A DNA stretch of 64,000 nucleotides, taken from NCBI GenBank assembly GCA_006384855.1, contig VCJN01000761.1, forward strand, positions 1 to 64,000, in the 5' to 3' direction. Source of the stretch: Tetraselmis striata. Lineage: Eukaryota; Chlorophyta; Chlorodendrophyceae; Chlorodendrales; Chlorodendraceae. Below, piece by piece: positions 34,767 to 51,289 of the stretch (position 1 is the first letter of the stretch; every line of letters starts with the position of its first letter). The notes below the pieces were generated by a model, which saw only the letters and a program-made list of their open reading frames with translations, was not told where the DNA came from and ran no database searches. The translations under genes and the position numbers were made by a program.

Positions 34767-36405
34767 TTGGATAAAGCAGATCCTAAAAGCAACTCGGCTT
34801 GGGCAGTGGAGAGCAACAAGTCAACGCTTTGTAAATCAATTCCTATTTCTATTTCCTTTTCTCACTGCGGCGCGTTCGACAACCATCTGCGGCACCCCGA
34901 CTTCGCGACAACCTCCCACGGGGTGCGTCGCACCGAGCTGAGCATGAAGCGACGTCAGGCGTTGCGCAACCACTTCTGTGGCTGTCGCATGCTCCCCTAC
35001 ATGGACGACTTTTCGTTGTTTGCGTCAAGCTGGGTGCAAGCCTACGCTGTGTGCGACCGCCTCACCTCCTTGCTCGGAAGGTTAGGTATTAGCCGACACC
35101 CCGACAAGGGTCAGTGGGACCCGTTAATACAGCGGCTGTAGCACCTTGGCCCGAAGTTCGACTCACATAGCGGTACGATTCGAGCTCCTTCCCTCGAAAA
35201 CTCGATTAAATTTCTGCTACTGCCCTCGGCCTCCTCTGCCGTGCTAACCGAGGCACGCGATGGCTGCTGTGCGAGAGCTCGCGTCCCGACATGTCTTGCT
35301 CAGTTCATGTTTCTCGCCTTCAAGCCGGCGCAATTCGATTTGCGCGAGCTGCACGACGTGCTCCGCACGAGGGACTCGTGGAGCGGGCGCGTCCGGATGA
35401 CGCACCAGCTCCGACGCAACCTCAAATGGTCGTTGGCGGTCCCCAACCACAGCAATGGCCACTCCATCTACAAGCCCGTAGAGACAGGCTACATGCACGT
35501 CGACAGCTCCGGCTACATGTGGGGCACCGTCCTCAACGAGACCACCGAGGCGCGCGGTTTCTGATACGACTGCGACCGCGAGCCGCACATCACTTACAAG
35601 GCGCTCAAGGCTGTCCGGTACGCCGTGTTCACCATCCTCTCGGAGTTGCGAGGTCGACAAGTGCCGCTCGTCCACGAGGACAACATGAGGGCGGTCCACA
35701 TCCTCGCCAACCTCACCTCCCGCCCCCTCCGCTAATGAGAGAGCTACGAAAACCGTGGTTCGTCCTTGACTCCCACGACATCTCCATCCCTACGCGCTAC
35801 ATCAAGACCACGGCGAACAACTGGGTTGATCGCTTAGCCGCGAGGTGGACTACGACGAATGGGCGTTCAACCTCCGCCACTTCAACCACCTCAACAACAT
35901 GTGGGGGCGTCACACCATCGACCGCTTCGCTGCCATGGAGAATGCGCGGCTCCAACGCTACAACTCCCGCTGGCGTGACCCTTGCAGCGAGGCTACCGAC
36001 AACCCGCGTCTCTCCGATGGCGCGTGGCATCCCGAGCAGAACAAGTAGAGCCCACCCAGGGGCCTCATCGACGACCTCGTCATCAAACTCCTCACCTCCG
36101 GCGCGGCGGCCACCGTCATCGCACCCTACTGGCTCGACCACGGCTGGCACCACCGCCTCTCGGAAATGGGATCCGAGGTGGTTGTCTTCCCGCCCTCTCC
36201 GGACTACCTCATCTTCGCGCCTGGCCGCCTCGGCGTGCGCGTTGGCGTCGGTCCTCGTCCCTGGTGGCCAGTGGTCGCCGTTCGGCTCCCCCTGCCCGGC
36301 CCCGGGTTTTTGACTGCCACTCGTCTGCCCCTCGGGCCGGCCGGCGCCCTCCTACGTAGTGCCCCAAGATCGAGCTCGGCAAACCACACATCCCCCTTCG
36401 TTTGA
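34767..36405 (+). pseudogene. DIRS-type reverse transcriptase / RNase H, decayed
   Basis: RT palm motif LPYMDDFSLF (about 34992-35021), a connection region, RNase H with GYMHVDSSGYMWG (about 35488-35526) and a later VHEDNMRAVHILANL, then a post-RNase H segment with TIDRFAAMENARLQRYNS (about 35913-35970) and VIAPYW (about 36118-36135). This domain order is typical of DIRS/PAT-like retroelements of algae. In-frame stops near 35139, 35562 and 35733 and several frame changes show it is dead. Gag and tyrosine-recombinase parts are not adjacent. Confidence 0.75.
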
Positions 36406-46019: not shown

Positions 46020-47180
46020 ATGGCTACACCAAGAGAGACGCCACCTGAGGACAGCGGAAGCTTTCCGGTAGCGGCCACTGCCGGCGAAGCACAACCGATT
46101 CCGCTCGAAGGAGGTCAAGAGGGCACGCAACCGACCCTCGCAAACATGATGAGCATGCTTCAACGACTAGCCGACCGAGTCGAGACTATGTCGACGGAGC
46201 AAGCGAAGATGCAAGAAGTAGCGCAAGCTACAACGGCGGCAACGGCGGAGATTCGCCGCTTGGACGAGTACGTGCGACAAGGCTTTAGTCATTTCGACGA
46301 CCGAGTGAACCGGAGCCGAGTTGTAGAGCAGCATATGCGAGACCAGCTTCGTTCTGCCCGGATCAGCGACATGCCTGGACTCATGCCGAGCGATGTGAAA
46401 CCAGCGAAGATCGAGAAGCTATCGACTACGAATATCGACGAGCTACGGAACTGGTTTCGTCATGCACGGGGCTACCTGAAATATCACAACGTAAACCCGG
46501 AGGAACCTCGTAGCGTGTACTGGGCATCTGGCTATTTTCACGGACCTGCATCCAAGTGGTGGTACGCGCAAGTGGCAAGTACGCACGACGAAATTGGCGG
46601 CGGTTTTACCGGTATTACGCACATGGAGGCGGCACTAATCACCGAATTCTGTGGACGTACACCGGCGAAGCAAGCTCGTATCAATCTGGATCGCGCGACA
46701 CAGCGGACTACAGTACAGAAGTACGCGAATTATTTCCGCGAGCAACTACTGGAGTTACCCCATCGTCACGAGGAAGATAATGTACATGACTTCCAGCGCG
46801 GACTGAAACACCATATTCGAAAGGAAGTTGCCCTGAAAAACCCTAAGACCCTGGCAGAAGCTGTACAGGCAACCCTGGCTGTTGAAGCTGCGGAGCGGGA
46901 GACAGATGTACACCGCGAGATCCGTCGCGAGCGCCGTAACATCATGGACGACGATGACGACGACGACGAGCAATACTACAGCACTGCTGAGGGTGAGGCT
47001 ACAGAACAAGAAGACGACATGTTGATGGCGCGGCGATTGACCGAGGAGGAGTTTGAGAGATTTAAAAAGGAGGGACGCTGCTTTATCTGCAGGGCGAAAG
47101 GTCATGTTGCGTCCGCGTGCCCGAGCAAGAAGAAGAAGATTTCTGATTATCGACCGAGAAAGACCCGGCCGGGAAACTAA
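46020..47180 (+). CDS. gag: Ty3/gypsy Gag protein
   Basis: 386 residues, single intact frame, ATG 26 bases after the PBS. N-terminus Pro/Glu-rich, then coiled coil (about 40-110), a capsid-like core (about 135-290) with WFRHARGYLKY and KWWYAQV, an acidic run (seven Asp in a row, about 305-315), and one CCHC zinc knuckle near the C-terminus (C354, C357, H362, C367; spacing CX2CX4HX4C) before a basic tail. It would form the particle and bind element RNA. The gene sits between the PBS and the methyltransferase-like segment and looks undamaged. Confidence 0.88.
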   Translation: MATPRETPPEDSGSFPVAATAGEAQPIPLEGGQEGTQPTLANMMSMLQRLADRVETMSTEQAKMQEVAQATTAATAEIRRLDEYVRQGFSHFDDRVNRSRVVEQHMRDQLRSARISDMPGLMPSDVKPAKIEKLSTTNIDELRNWFRHARGYLKYHNVNPEEPRSVYWASGYFHGPASKWWYAQVASTHDEIGGGFTGITHMEAALITEFCGRTPAKQARINLDRATQRTTVQKYANYFREQLLELPHRHEEDNVHDFQRGLKHHIRKEVALKNPKTLAEAVQATLAVEAAERETDVHREIRRERRNIMDDDDDDDEQYYSTAEGEATEQEDDMLMARRLTEEEFERFKKEGRCFICRAKGHVASACPSKKKKISDYRPRKTRPGN

Positions 47181-47319
47181 GACGTGAGTCGGCCGCGCGC
47201 GGCACGCGACAGGGTGAAGGACTGTCCCCTAAAACGGCTCGCGAGACTACAGAAGTACAGCCCTCGTATCCTCGAACGACACTGAGGCCTGATTTCTCCA
47301 CAAGGATTTCGGCGACTGG

Positions 47320-48143
47320 ATGGTACATCGCGAATTATTTCACGAGTACACGAAGAAATACGGACCCTGCGACCTGGACGGAGCTTGTGATAATGACGGC
47401 CTGAATTCTCAAGTTTCTGATAGTTTTTGCTGTCCGACGCGCCCATTTCAGGAACAGGATCTCGGAGAATATCGGCGTATCTGGCTAAATGCCCCGTATG
47501 ACCGAATTGAAGAATTTTTGGGCCACTACCTTCGACAGAAGTTATTGCATCCGCATCTACGAGCAATTATTGTGGTCCCAAAATGGTCGCGTAAGCCGTG
47601 GTTTCGACTACTTAGAAATTTTCGTCTGGTGGATGAGTTGCCCGCGGAGACTTCCGTGTTTACGTGTCCAACGAACGATGGCATAGAAGGTGCGAGACAA
47701 GATGTTGGCCCCACTCGATGGGCGACACAGATCTACGCTGACGATGGCGCCGGCGTACGGTTTCTACCGCAGCACCTGAGAACCCCACCGAAGCCTGAGT
47801 GGACGCACTCGAAGGTTCTAGTAACCGATGGAAGACGAGTGCTTCTGACTGTAGAAGACAGCGGACTGATTTGGTTTCCAGAAGGAAGCGCGGCGACACG
47901 GACGCGACGCCGGAGACAGCAGCAGTACGACGATTACTCGAGCAAACTGGGTACCGGGTACAGGAGAGCAATCTACGGTACCTCGGCACTCAGCGGACGG
48001 GAGGCAACCGGTGTCATGTATACCTGTATCGCGTTCGTCGTAATACTGTACCTACGAAGACCCCTTTGAACCGTGCACTATGGACAACCTGGAAGAAATT
48101 ATTGGAGGCACGAAGTACGGGTTATCTGGAGACGGAGACAGTA
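47320..48143 (+). CDS. Methyltransferase-like domain of the gypsy element, interrupted
   Basis: Frame 47320-48069 opens with EYTKKYGPCDLDGACDND and contains RRIWLNAPYDRIEEFLGHYL followed by AIIVVPKW, resembling the adenine-methylase-derived module found in some retroelements of algae and oomycetes; the expected D/NPPF/Y catalytic motif reads NAPY. After about 47900 the better continuation is in another frame (47799-48143; AVRRLLEQTGYRV ... CHVYLYRV), so a frameshift is likely. It ends at the insertion point of the nested element; the frame resumes at 51290. Confidence 0.6.
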
Positions 48144-48329
48144 TGATCTAAACTAGTTTATGGGGTTTCCATCCTTGACCTAACCGCTTTTTAGCTACAA
48201 GTGCTGCTCAGTGGTACGGGAACTAGTAACTGTTGTTGCGCCCTTGTTGGGTGCAGCACGAGTAGACATAAAAGCAGCCAGAACAGCCGAGCCTGCCATC
48301 TTCCAGTTTTCGCTGCGTTCCACGCAGCG
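48144..48329 (+). repeat. Split direct repeat A1
   Basis: 186 bp, left terminus of the nested element, begins TGATCTAAACTAG and ends CCACGCAGCG. Matches 50986-51171 with only a few substitutions. Confidence 0.92.
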
Positions 48330-48409
48330 ATGTAAAAACTGTCTCGTAACCAGTTGCGAGCAAGGTCACCCCATGTTGTTCAAGACCACACCCGGCTCGC
48401 CATCCGAGT

Positions 48410-49234
48410 GTGATATTCTCGTCCGTACGTCCGTGCGTTACTATGTCAGATGGAGAAGAACCCGTCGTTGAGCCGACGCTCAAGTCACTGCAAGCAGATG
48501 TGCGTGCGTTGGCTACGGCTGTAGCTCAATTGACGGCTCGTGAGCGTGTTGTTGATGGAGAAGGGGCACATGGCTCTCGCTCCGGGCAGCGCATCGCGGG
48601 ACAGCCGACAGGCAGCGGGGGAGCCGCAGAGCGCCCCGACTTGCTAGAGCTAGCCCAGAGCGGCCGTGTCGGAGCAAAATCCGTGAGTGCCGAGGATGAC
48701 TACCTCGCGGTGCCAGAATTACTGCAGAGAGCAGAGTCTGGTTATGAGGCCGTTCGACCGGTCAGCCGAGTGCCTGGACTTTTTCCCTTGAGCACCGACC
48801 TAACGAACGAGTACCTCAAGCAGGATGACCGGCGTTTGCCGGCCCAGGAGGAGTATTTGTGGATGTCGTGTTTCGGGGCCCACATGGCCGCGCTTTTCGT
48901 GGCTCTCGACGAGCTACTGCCCTACGTCCCTGCCACCAACCAGGACTTCACCCCCTACCTCGCGAGAGCTCGGAACCATGCCGAGGCCATCGACAAGGCG
49001 TTTCGGTTTCGTTTGGCCTTCCTGCGGAGGCTAAATGAGATCAAGCGTGTGCACGGTGACCAAGGTGTTCTGGATGTGCTGCGAGCCCAGCATTTTCAGC
49101 CGGCTTCGGAGCATCTGGGCTCCGCGATCTTTGGGGACCTCATGCTGGACTACTGCACGAGTGGTGGCTGCAGCTGCCGGTCGCGGGCGTGGGCGAGGAC
49201 GTGGTGGTGGGCGTGGGCGTGGCCGCGAAGGTGA
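48410..49234 (+). CDS. Gag-like protein of the tyrosine-recombinase element
   Basis: 274 residues. N-terminus (1-45) is a predicted amphipathic helix (TLKSLQADVRALATAVAQL), then a low-complexity Gly/Ser linker, then a folded region (about 85-250) with LWMSCFGAHMAALFVALDELL and ARNHAEAIDKAFRFRLAFLRRLNEI. The position first after the left repeat and the helical content fit the putative Gag of DIRS-like elements. The last 25 residues are Trp/Arg-rich; another frame over the same bases encodes an RG-box tail (about 49185-49243), so a programmed or accidental shift may give the real C-terminus. Confidence 0.6.
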   Translation: MIFSSVRPCVTMSDGEEPVVEPTLKSLQADVRALATAVAQLTARERVVDGEGAHGSRSGQRIAGQPTGSGGAAERPDLLELAQSGRVGAKSVSAEDDYLAVPELLQRAESGYEAVRPVSRVPGLFPLSTDLTNEYLKQDDRRLPAQEEYLWMSCFGAHMAALFVALDELLPYVPATNQDFTPYLARARNHAEAIDKAFRFRLAFLRRLNEIKRVHGDQGVLDVLRAQHFQPASEHLGSAIFGDLMLDYCTSGGCSCRSRAWARTWWWAWAWPRR

Positions 49235-49280
49235 GCACGACTGACGGTGTGGGGCGCCTTTCGTCGGAGCTGCTGGAGCT

Positions 49281-50906
49281 TTGCGAGGCCACCTTTCGGT
49301 GACCGCCGCAAAACGCACCCTTGCAGCTCAACGGCGAGATGAGCGCCCCGTGTTAGGGCCTGACCCCCCCACCTTACAGACTTCCTTTAGACCTTCCTCG
49401 GTGCGGCGCTTCTCACAGCTACAGCCGAGTGCGGCTCAACCATCCGCACACCTGCACATGGCGGCTCAACTAACCGCCTCCCGTACCATTCCACCACTGC
49501 GTCCGTCGGTTGTTACACTACGTGTTACAACTGGTTCGCAACGACCAAGTTTCGCGCGGGTACGTTACGCGCGAGACAGGCGCTACGAGCGCGAAGGGCG
49601 CGCAGGGCGGCCCTCTTACCTGAACCTAGCCCCGCAAACCCGTACCGATGCTGTTCCAAACCCGTCCAGCAGCTACCGGCCAACCGCCGGGAACCTAACT
49701 GCTGCTGCCGAGTACTTTGCGAACAGTAGTCGTACCGGTGGAACTCTGTCAGTAAAACGACGCACTTACGTAATTGACGAGCCCGAAGCTGTCGCTCCCT
49801 GGGCTGCTTCATTGCGAGCTCGGCTGCAGGACGCGTTCGGCTCAGATGAGCTGGGACAGCGGACGCTCGACCTACTCTCCAGCTCCCTCAGCGCTCAGAC
49901 ACTCAAGAGCTATGCCGGCCGGCTGTCTCAGTTCGCGGAGTTCTGTCACGACTCCGAGAACATCAGCCCGCTGGAGGCGACTACTGCGACTGTCGTTCGG
50001 TACGTTGCCTGGATCGGCGAGCGGGGGCACATCGCCGCTAAGTCACTGCAACCTTACCTGTCTGCGATCAACACGTTCTTCGAGCTGCACAACCTCGACC
50101 CAATCGCCAAGGACAGCCTGCACTTAACTTCAGCAAGGCGTGGGCTGATGCTGCGTCAGCGCCGACTGGACGCTGCCCCTTTGCGTGTCCCTCTGCCTGC
50201 GGATGTAGCTTACCGCTTCGTCACAAAGGCCGAGCTGATTGTGTCTGCTCCCTACCCCGAGTACCACCACAACTTCCGGGCCCTCCTGGCCTCGGTTGTC
50301 AACTTTATGTTCTTTGCCAGGGGCCTTACTGGCGTGTCCTGTCGAGTGCGAGACGTGCATGTCGACGACTACAACATCACCCTGCAAGTGTACCGCGAGA
50401 AGGGTCGCGCTGGTCGACGGGGACCCGACGACCTACGCGTACTTCTCCTTCCGGTGTCCGAGCACCCTCGAGTGGCACGTCTCCTGCACCACTTCATCGA
50501 CAACGTCCAATCTGTCCCCCTAACTACTGTTGACTTGGCTACAACAAACTTCTGGGCTGTCACTGCGGCCGAGCAGTCAAAACCTTGGACTGCGGCTACA
50601 ATGTCAGACTGGCTGTCTGCAGCCATCAGTCTAGTCAACGCTGCCCCCCCTGCTGGCACTTCCTGGACTTCACACAGTCTTCGCAAGGGCGCAGCTTCTG
50701 CAGCTAACGCCATCGGAGTGCCACTGTCCCACATCCGCTACCAAGGCGGTTGGGCCACTAACTCTGATGTCGTTCTGGACTACATCGACCCCAACGTTCT
50801 TCCTTCTCCTGGCGCGTGGTTCTTCTTTGGACACATCGCCCCCCTCCGCCACTTCCAAGTCCAACAGGACTCCGCAGCGGTGGCCTTCCCAGTGCCTCCT
50901 TCATGA
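49281..50906 (+). CDS. Tyrosine recombinase of the nested element
   Basis: 541 residues, intact. Residues 1-170 are basic and poorly ordered; 185-290 form the core-binding SAM-like domain (SAQTLKSYAGRLSQFAEF); 310-530 the catalytic domain. Catalytic residues visible: Arg347 (FFARGLTG), His465 and Arg468 (HSLR), Trp491 in the third His/Trp position (QGGW), nucleophile Tyr501 (VVLDYIDP). DIRS-like elements use this enzyme to insert a circular DNA copy without target duplication. It lies between the Gag-like ORF (46-bp gap) and repeat B1. Confidence 0.9.
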   Translation: MRGHLSVTAAKRTLAAQRRDERPVLGPDPPTLQTSFRPSSVRRFSQLQPSAAQPSAHLHMAAQLTASRTIPPLRPSVVTLRVTTGSQRPSFARVRYARDRRYEREGRAGRPSYLNLAPQTRTDAVPNPSSSYRPTAGNLTAAAEYFANSSRTGGTLSVKRRTYVIDEPEAVAPWAASLRARLQDAFGSDELGQRTLDLLSSSLSAQTLKSYAGRLSQFAEFCHDSENISPLEATTATVVRYVAWIGERGHIAAKSLQPYLSAINTFFELHNLDPIAKDSLHLTSARRGLMLRQRRLDAAPLRVPLPADVAYRFVTKAELIVSAPYPEYHHNFRALLASVVNFMFFARGLTGVSCRVRDVHVDDYNITLQVYREKGRAGRRGPDDLRVLLLPVSEHPRVARLLHHFIDNVQSVPLTTVDLATTNFWAVTAAEQSKPWTAATMSDWLSAAISLVNAAPPAGTSWTSHSLRKGAASAANAIGVPLSHIRYQGGWATNSDVVLDYIDPNVLPSPGAWFFFGHIAPLRHFQVQQDSAAVAFPVPPS

Positions 50907-50959
50907 CTTGGCGCTACCCCTTCTCCGTCAATCCACCGCTCTCTACGTTCGCTCAAGAC

Positions 50960-50985
50960 TGGCAAAACCAGACTCAACTTTGAAA
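50960..50985 (+). repeat. Split direct repeat B1
   Basis: 26 bp from TGGCAAAACC to TTTGAAA, directly abutting A2, as in the circle junction expected for DIRS/PAT elements. Same sequence as 51264-51289. Confidence 0.92.
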
Positions 50986-51171
50986 TGATCTAAACTAGTT
51001 TATGGGGTTTCCATCCTTGACCTAACCGCTTTTTAGCTACAAGTGCTCCTCAGTGGTACGGGAACTAGTAACTGTGGTTGCGCCCTTGTTGGGTGCAGCA
51101 CGAGTAGACATAAAAGCAGCCAGAACAGCTGAGCCTGCCATCTTCCAGTTTTCGCTGCGTTCCACGCAGCG
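50986..51171 (+). repeat. Split direct repeat A2
   Basis: 186 bp copy of A1, immediately after B1. It is followed by 92 bp of unique sequence before B2. Confidence 0.92.
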
Positions 51172-51263
51172 CCCCCCCTGACTCCGTTTTCCCTCCACGC
51201 TTTCGCTAAACCATCCTGCCAATTTCGGCTCTTGACCGTGTAAAACTGCCTGCGCGACCTTTT

Positions 51264-51289
51264 TGGCAAAACCAGACTCAACTTTGAAA
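51264..51289 (+). repeat. Split direct repeat B2
   Basis: 26 bp copy of B1 forming the right terminus of the nested element; the interrupted gypsy frame resumes at the next base. Confidence 0.9.

Follow-up and report, generated by a model that had tools for sequence, protein, structure and literature searches.

A Gag-recombinase element lacking reverse transcriptase in the green alga Tetraselmis striata, probably one half of a two-component retrotransposon

Crypton DNA transposons of eukaryotes encode a tyrosine recombinase (YR) and no reverse transcriptase (RT), and they are not known to have split direct repeats or a Gag-like open reading frame (ORF). PAT-like and Ngaro-like YR retrotransposons typically leave no target-site duplication, and a non-autonomous split-repeat element of a green alga is known in TOC1 of Chlamydomonas. 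PAT-, Ngaro-, and VIPER-like elements are characterized by split direct repeats (PMC6681497, PMC3266345). There are reports of PAT-like elements in green algae (PMC3266345, PMC8226300), including Chlamydomonas and its relatives (PMC8226300), and of Ngaro and PAT-like families in Ectocarpus (PMC12477816). SIRE of Trypanosoma cruzi is a non-autonomous relative of VIPER that corresponds to the A2-B2 region of the latter (PMC6681497). Among long terminal repeat (LTR) elements, some that are non-autonomous are moved in trans: TR-GAG retains Gag and presumably obtains its other proteins from elsewhere (PMC8704663), and BARE2, which has no Gag, is packaged in BARE1 particles and outnumbers BARE1 in barley (PMC3735527). 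Here, we describe an element at positions 48144 to 51289 of a 64,000-nucleotide (nt) stretch of DNA from Tetraselmis striata (contig VCJN01000761.1, positions 1 to 64,000, forward strand), which we refer to as the window. The element encodes a Gag-like protein and a YR, and we call it the Gag-YR element.

The Gag-YR element resembles PAT-, Ngaro-, and VIPER-like elements (order DIRS) in its A1...B1-A2-B2 repeats, its YR, and its putatively Gag-like first ORF. Unlike PAT-like and Ngaro-like elements, it has no RT-RNase H; this activity is encoded by another split-repeat element with no recognizable Gag or YR, hereafter the RT-only element. TR-GAG and BARE-2 are LTR elements with a complete helper, whereas here each half appears to hold what the other lacks, with the YR on the Gag element. 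Furthermore, TR-GAG has two LTRs and a single Gag ORF, unlike the Gag-YR element with its split repeats and its YR. SIRE shares with the Gag-YR element a non-autonomous, split-repeat character of the YR kind but differs in being described without a Gag or YR (PMC6681497). Cryptons likewise have a YR and no RT, but the Gag-YR element is set apart from them by split direct repeats and a Gag-like ORF, and joint change of its A1 and A2 repeats argues for copying through RNA. A literature search, which was a weak test covering few subscription papers, did not turn up, among the papers listed, any YR retrotransposon whose Gag-YR and RT functions are described as lying on separate elements.

We propose that the window copy is the Gag-YR half of a two-component YR retrotransposon in which the RT lies on another element and a single recombinase site is shared between them, a reading that we consider fairly probable. 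We are considerably more confident of one part of it, that RT is supplied in trans to the Gag-YR element. The shared arm of the recombinase site suggests a specific partnership with the RT-only element, which would in turn depend on the Gag-YR recombinase; for this we see slightly better than even chances. In its fullest form, the proposal describes a segmented retrotransposon, with Gag plus YR and RT-RNase H-Dam on separately transposing elements that complement each other and share one recombinase site; on this form our judgment is evenly balanced. Complete elements in the same genome, which combine a first ORF, RT, and YR, may serve as additional helpers.

The Gag-YR element has the layout A1(186)-ORF1-YR-B1(26)-A2(186)-gap-B2(26) (Table 1). 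The repeat coordinates bear out an earlier note on this stretch, which had described an A1-[Gag-like, recombinase]-B1-A2-B2 architecture with repeat lengths of 186/186 and 26/26 base pairs (bp). That note had also called the repeats perfect, which is true of B1 and B2 (identical over 26 nt) but not of A1 and A2, which differ at 3 of 186 positions. Two open frames lie between A1 and B1, first the Gag-like ORF1 and then the YR. As the note had said, there is no RT or RNase H between them and the repeats: tblastn detected neither inside the window element. Of the two ORFs that it had taken to be intact, the YR frame (482 amino acids [aa]) is open, but ORF1 is broken; relative to other copies, the window copy lacks a net 53 nt near position 49150, and ORF1 shifts frame and stops after 263 aa. 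The insertion itself is clean. Four of four other copies of the host sequence that were compared are continuous across the insertion point GACAGTA|CG, with matches of 59 to 60 of 60 bases on the left and 147 to 148 of 150 on the right in three of the copies and 107 of 150 in the fourth. Both borders of the element are therefore exact, and there is no target duplication, a trait that the window copy has in common with PAT-like and Ngaro-like elements.

The Gag-YR family is large. We searched the assembly (224 Mb; 2,903 contigs) for a signature at the end of ORF1 and found it at 793 + 769 = 1,562 places when up to three mismatches were allowed (control, 0). At the same threshold, the signature was present in 30 of 30 Gag-YR loci and in none of five complete or RT-only loci. 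The B1|A2 junction pattern matched 2,016 places, a count that includes RT-only junctions, which match at three mismatches; for this reason, the copy estimate was taken from the ORF1 signature. Identical flanks in two pairs among 24 copies (duplicates or haplotypes) mean that places may outnumber insertions. From 7,263 first-look candidates, we scored 88 matches to the YR, all with at least 94% identity, and 70 of these had no stop in the matched stretch. The active-site pattern of the YR occurred 959 times in the genome. Thus, the element is not the single copy that the earlier note had allowed for.

We looked for RT within the family using tblastn with RT as the query and loci L001 to L060 as the targets. 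This set consists of 30 A1 regions and 30 YR regions (L001 and L031 are the window copy); 30 of the loci span only A1 plus about 1.5 kb, and some are cut by contig ends. No RT was detected inside the Gag-YR element in any of these loci, and the only matches, to a Dam-like ORF and an RT relic, were in the flanks. The longer relatives from which the window copy might have been a lone deletion, with RT at the Gag/recombinase junction, did not appear among them. Among the first 97 exact junctions (contigs C1 to C378), 46 had an exact ORF1 signature 1.5 to 1.9 kb upstream, two had the signature further off (C225 and C348), and 49 had no exact signature among the matches listed. When five pieces upstream of junctions without a listed signature were read, three were Gag-YR and two matched none of the elements examined here, with no recognizable RT in those two. 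The unmatched pieces are L083 (C8:40765-40925) and L086 (C149:197240-197400), which lie 1.5 to 1.7 kb upstream of exact Gag-YR junctions. Among the RNase H matches listed, there was one in the 9-kb upstream stretch of at least 1 of the 100 Gag-YR junctions listed, compared with at least 9 of 30 junctions of the complete family.

Candidates for a longer relative were examined and rejected. On C225, where the ORF1 signature lies 5.0 kb before the junction, there are two adjacent Gag-YR copies. The one RNase H piece near a Gag-YR junction (P0082) cannot be internal, as it is separated by 4.6 kb from the junction downstream of it on C201; it led to the complete family. A single gene model with RT and YR (P0077) has an RT stretch that reads as Ty3-type by our own assignment. 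A degenerate pattern for a DIRS RT motif gave no matches and was a poor probe, as RTs found later do not have that motif. On C348 (1472-10232), four Gag-YR junctions stand in a row at a spacing of 2915 to 2924, apparently a head-to-tail array that shares A repeats. Tandem arrays with one-unit spacing would be expected if circles insert at, or recombine between, identical junctions.

The best protein matches carry the JGI code Tetstr1, which we take to stand for T. striata. An alignment of the C-terminal part of the YR with Cre recombinase (E = 0.0013) takes in the catalytic H-x-x-R, W, and Y positions, and the YR is 39% identical over 361 aa to that of the complete family. No relatives were found when viral contigs were scanned with the YR and with the RT, and phage records yielded none. 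A 91% identical YR (P0001) and a 98% identical part of ORF1 (P0210) each come from a 5,779-bp JGI contig, which is probably a single contig, and the Gag-YR element therefore probably exists outside this assembly. ORF1 is 284 to 296 aa long, with the start MSDGEEP and an RG-rich tail, in at least 27 of 58 other loci, a lower bound given that the search demanded that start. It has no match in Pfam. We label it Gag-like from features of its sequence, namely its position, its RG-rich tail, and a stop-codon motif in common with the complete family. This motif, TGACGGTGTGG, occurs at the first-ORF stop in both families, which suggests common descent of that boundary. A read-through fusion of ORF1 and YR is not favored, as the 71-codon open stretch from the ORF1 stop to the ATG of the YR is shorter in several copies.

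A check of selection on the two genes, as suggested in the earlier note, was run on variants within the family. In 30 copies of the YR, variants found in at least three copies included 12 nonsynonymous and 36 synonymous changes (ratio of nonsynonymous to synonymous polymorphism [pN/pS], 0.12), while rare variants included 102 and 99 (0.37); these copies were chosen by protein score, which biases pN/pS downward. The ORF1 set, which was not chosen by protein score, consisted of the 26 of 59 ORF1s that align without gaps. In these, there were 10 nonsynonymous and 40 synonymous variants in at least three copies (pN/pS, 0.09) and 64 and 73 rare variants (0.30). This pattern indicates that ORF1 and YR are under purifying selection and that changes spreading with the family are strongly filtered. 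The earlier note had left two options, a deletion derivative moved by an RT from elsewhere or a distinct lineage that keeps only Gag and an integrating enzyme. A large family under purifying selection, with no RT at that place in the copies sampled, suggests the distinct lineage, combined with RT in trans, and does not fit a lone deletion.

The A repeats may carry a trace of how the family is copied. Both were present in 24 of 30 loci (six were dropped). Across 17 variable columns, there were 91 copy-by-column minor states, and 83 of these were found in both A1 and A2. After removal of one of each identical-flank pair (22 copies), A1 and A2 had a mean of 2.5 differences within a copy versus 8.7 when taken from different copies, and none of 20,000 permutations did as well. 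Joint change of A1 and A2 is what template-bridged cDNA synthesis of the ends would predict, as for LTRs. We take it to mean that the Gag-YR family probably replicates through RNA, though it encodes no RT.

A candidate source of that RT is abundant in the same genome. A search for RT gave 270 matches, and the 120 listed included a cluster of 77 members with a 607-aa RT (P0264). We scored 72 genomic copies of this RT from 4,563 first-look candidates; the matched stretch is free of stops in 46 of the 72, and 40 of the 72 lie within an open frame of 763 aa. All three copies that were read whole (L080 to L082) have the layout A1(179)-RT/RNase H/Dam (763 aa)-B1(28)-A2-gap(80)-B2. The element in L080 is about 3,050 bp long, its RT stop abuts B1, and tblastn detected no significant Gag or YR in it. 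The distance from the end of the RT protein to an exact RT-only junction is precisely 13 nt in 49 of the 72 scored copies, which leaves no room for a YR. RT-only junctions number 248 in the genome (control, 0), and none of 30 Gag-YR loci contains the pattern. Over 668 aa, the RT has 61% identity to the RT of the complete family. The similarity between this RT and the complete pol frame starts near where the Gag-YR element leaves off (R-A-[ND]-S-C-T-P), and so the two halves look complementary. Between A1 and A2 of the three RT-only copies there were 1, 0, and 0 mismatches, which is uninformative since these copies hardly differ among themselves. Two of the 72 RT copies (C1006:39518-46883 and C1208:6579-13934) have their nearest listed junction 5.6 kb off and may be insertions or longer elements.

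The DNA that links the two halves is the putative recombinase site. Gag-YR and RT-only elements have in common the crossover sequence TGAAA|TG[A/T]TCTAAACTAGTTTATG[G/T]GGTTTC. Over the first 27 nt of A, which form the right arm, the two match at 24 of 27 positions, while they match the complete family at 11 and 12 of 27. None of 2,000 shuffles was as good for the right arm between the halves, versus 138 and 206 of 2,000 against the complete family. The similarity stops with the right arm, because the next 33 nt match at only 7 of 33 positions. The exact site with two free positions occurs at 918 places (control, 0), and 11 of the places listed are of the RT-only type. The arms of the junction were no better than shuffles as inverted repeats (234, 561, and 410 of 2,000). 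The RT-only element encodes no YR and yet retains the arm of a family that does; the best explanation, we suggest, is that it uses the YR of that family.

These observations can be arranged into a cycle. The Gag-YR element would be transcribed, and the Gag-like protein and YR would be made. An RT acting in trans, most likely from the RT-RNase H-Dam element, whose existence is documented above, would then copy the element RNA. The internal B1|A2 junction would serve as a template from which the missing ends are rebuilt, giving a circle joined at B2|A1; the joint change of A1 and A2 supports this step. The YR would recombine B2|A1 with a target of approximately (N)TA|Y, and the circle would be inserted without target duplication, in keeping with the exact insertion seen in the window. 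Finally, through the nearly identical right arm of the RT-only element, the same YR, and perhaps the same Gag, would serve that element in return.

A less likely alternative is that both halves are ordinary non-autonomous derivatives that live on complete PAT/Ngaro-type elements and have no special relation to each other. The complete elements could be those found here or a relative that shares the ends of the halves and has escaped detection or died out. Complete elements do exist: L073 and L074, with domains assigned in L073, have the layout A1(181)-first ORF (355-aa frame)-RT/RNase H/Dam (849-aa frame)-YR-B1(27)-A2-gap-B2 and are 98.6% identical over 4,918 nt; the YR frame is interrupted in L074 but open in L073. 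In our reading, RT and YR stretches also occur side by side in at least one further Tetraselmis protein (P0294). All three families have a similar left arm, the same architecture, and a hairpin at the end of A. Against this alternative, the right arm is common to the two halves and not to the complete family, and the YR of the Gag-YR family is only 39% identical to that of the complete family. Nor was a complete element with the ends of the halves seen in the sampled loci, which are a small part of the family. Two pairs of complete-family junctions lie one A-gap-B unit apart (C158:107039/107337, 298 bp; C555:96468/96770, 302 bp) and would reflect insertion of, or recombination over, this short unit.

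Several results weigh against a two-component system. Complete elements are common, with 281 junctions in the genome, and could supply every function. The left arm does not discriminate among families: in gapped comparisons, 1, 3, and 1 of 2,000 shuffles were as good in the three family pairs, and without gaps the halves match at 13 of 30 positions, versus 15 of 30 for each half against the complete family. The pyrimidine that follows B2 is also nonspecific, being found in 24 of 24 Gag-YR, 3 of 3 RT-only, and 2 of 2 complete copies. Past the right arm, the two halves have A repeats that cannot be aligned with each other (1,459 of 2,000 shuffles did as well), and thus no packaging signal common to both can be recognized. 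The whole-copy layout of the RT-only element comes from just three copies. Of the 72 scored copies, 23 have no listed exact junction at 13 nt: 19 have none among the 100 of 248 listed, and the others have one at 75, 362, 5,631, and 5,641 nt. The Gag-YR element outnumbers the RT-only element by about six to one. For ORF1, a profile comparison with the first ORF of the complete family was not significant (probability, 0.8%; E = 0.068), and the predicted fold was unusable (predicted local distance difference test score, 40). The two unmatched pieces upstream of Gag-YR junctions may be disrupted copies or a third cargo. Lastly, gene conversion or unequal exchange could also make A1 and A2 change together, and tandem arrays do exist.

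It is improbable that the Gag-YR element moves as DNA in the manner of a Crypton, with the YR excising and reinserting a circle, no reverse transcription, and the RT-only element unconnected. A YR with H-x-x-R/W/Y and the lack of an encoded RT would suit such a cycle, and the one-unit spacing of tandem arrays such as that on C348 suggests recombination at the DNA level, either at the internal junction or from one A repeat to another. However, the joint change of A1 and A2 in the subfamilies seen is not produced by simple excision and reinsertion, a DNA cycle has no obvious need of split direct repeats, and ORF1 is under selection. That the window copy is a single deletion derivative of no importance is already refuted by the number of signature places and by selection on both ORFs, even though its ORF1 has a deletion that the compared copies do not show.

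Table 1. Coordinates of features in and beside the Gag-YR element of the window
Feature	Position	Strand	Remarks
Repeated host sequence, left part	46020..48143	+	Ty3-type gag (46020-47180), Dam-like ORF (47320-48069)
Split direct repeat A1	48144..48329	+	186 bp; first 27 nt are the right arm of the putative recombinase site
Hairpin ending A1	48311..48329	+	Same hairpin at 51153-51171 in A2; RNA fold z, -3.77
ORF1, Gag-like, frame broken in window copy	48443..49234	+	263 aa here
Place of deletion in ORF1	49150..49153	+	Net 53 nt; two alignments overlap by 4 nt
TGACGGTGTGG motif	49242..49252	+	At ORF1 stop of other copies; also at first-ORF stop of complete family
Tyrosine recombinase ORF	49458..50906	+	482 aa from ATG, open; Pfam Phage_int_SAM_1, 2.6e-08
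Split direct repeat B1	50960..50985	+	26 bp
Putative recombinase site	50960..51012	+	B1 plus first 27 nt of A2; right arm common to RT-only element
Split direct repeat A2	50986..51171	+	With B1 makes the internal junction B1|A2
Split direct repeat B2, right end	51264..51289	+	26 bp

The 3' end of A is a hairpin in all three families, as judged from one copy each (RNA fold z of -3.77 for Gag-YR, -6.19 for RT-only, and -2.24 for the complete family); it lies at 728-768 in L080 and at 1537-1578 in L073. In the Gag-YR element, the identity of A1 and A2 ends at this hairpin, which is perhaps a point of priming or strand transfer. Elsewhere in the window, the Dam-like ORF of the host sequence matches Pfam Dam at 2.7e-05 with 24.3 bits, which is under the cutoff of 28.1, and is 27.7% identical over 155 aa to the RT-only protein (E = 7e-06), hinting at exchange between Ty3-type and YR retrotransposons. 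A relic at 35210-36310 resembles the RNase H/Dam region of YR retrotransposons and, over 842 nt, shares 68% identity with the RT-only element.

The Gag-YR family shows that a YR element without RT can reach very high numbers, and surveys that search for RT would miss such elements. Retrotransposons that are not autonomous have usually shed functions and depend on a complete helper. Here, what is missing from one abundant element is retained by another, and vice versa, and the recombinase site is the DNA that they clearly have in common. If our reading is correct, T. striata would harbor a retrotransposon with a divided genome, as in a multipartite virus, in which neither half could move alone. 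Acting together, the two halves would nevertheless account for roughly 1,500 and 250 places in a single genome. Such a system would make it testable whether selfish elements remain stable when cooperation is needed both ways.

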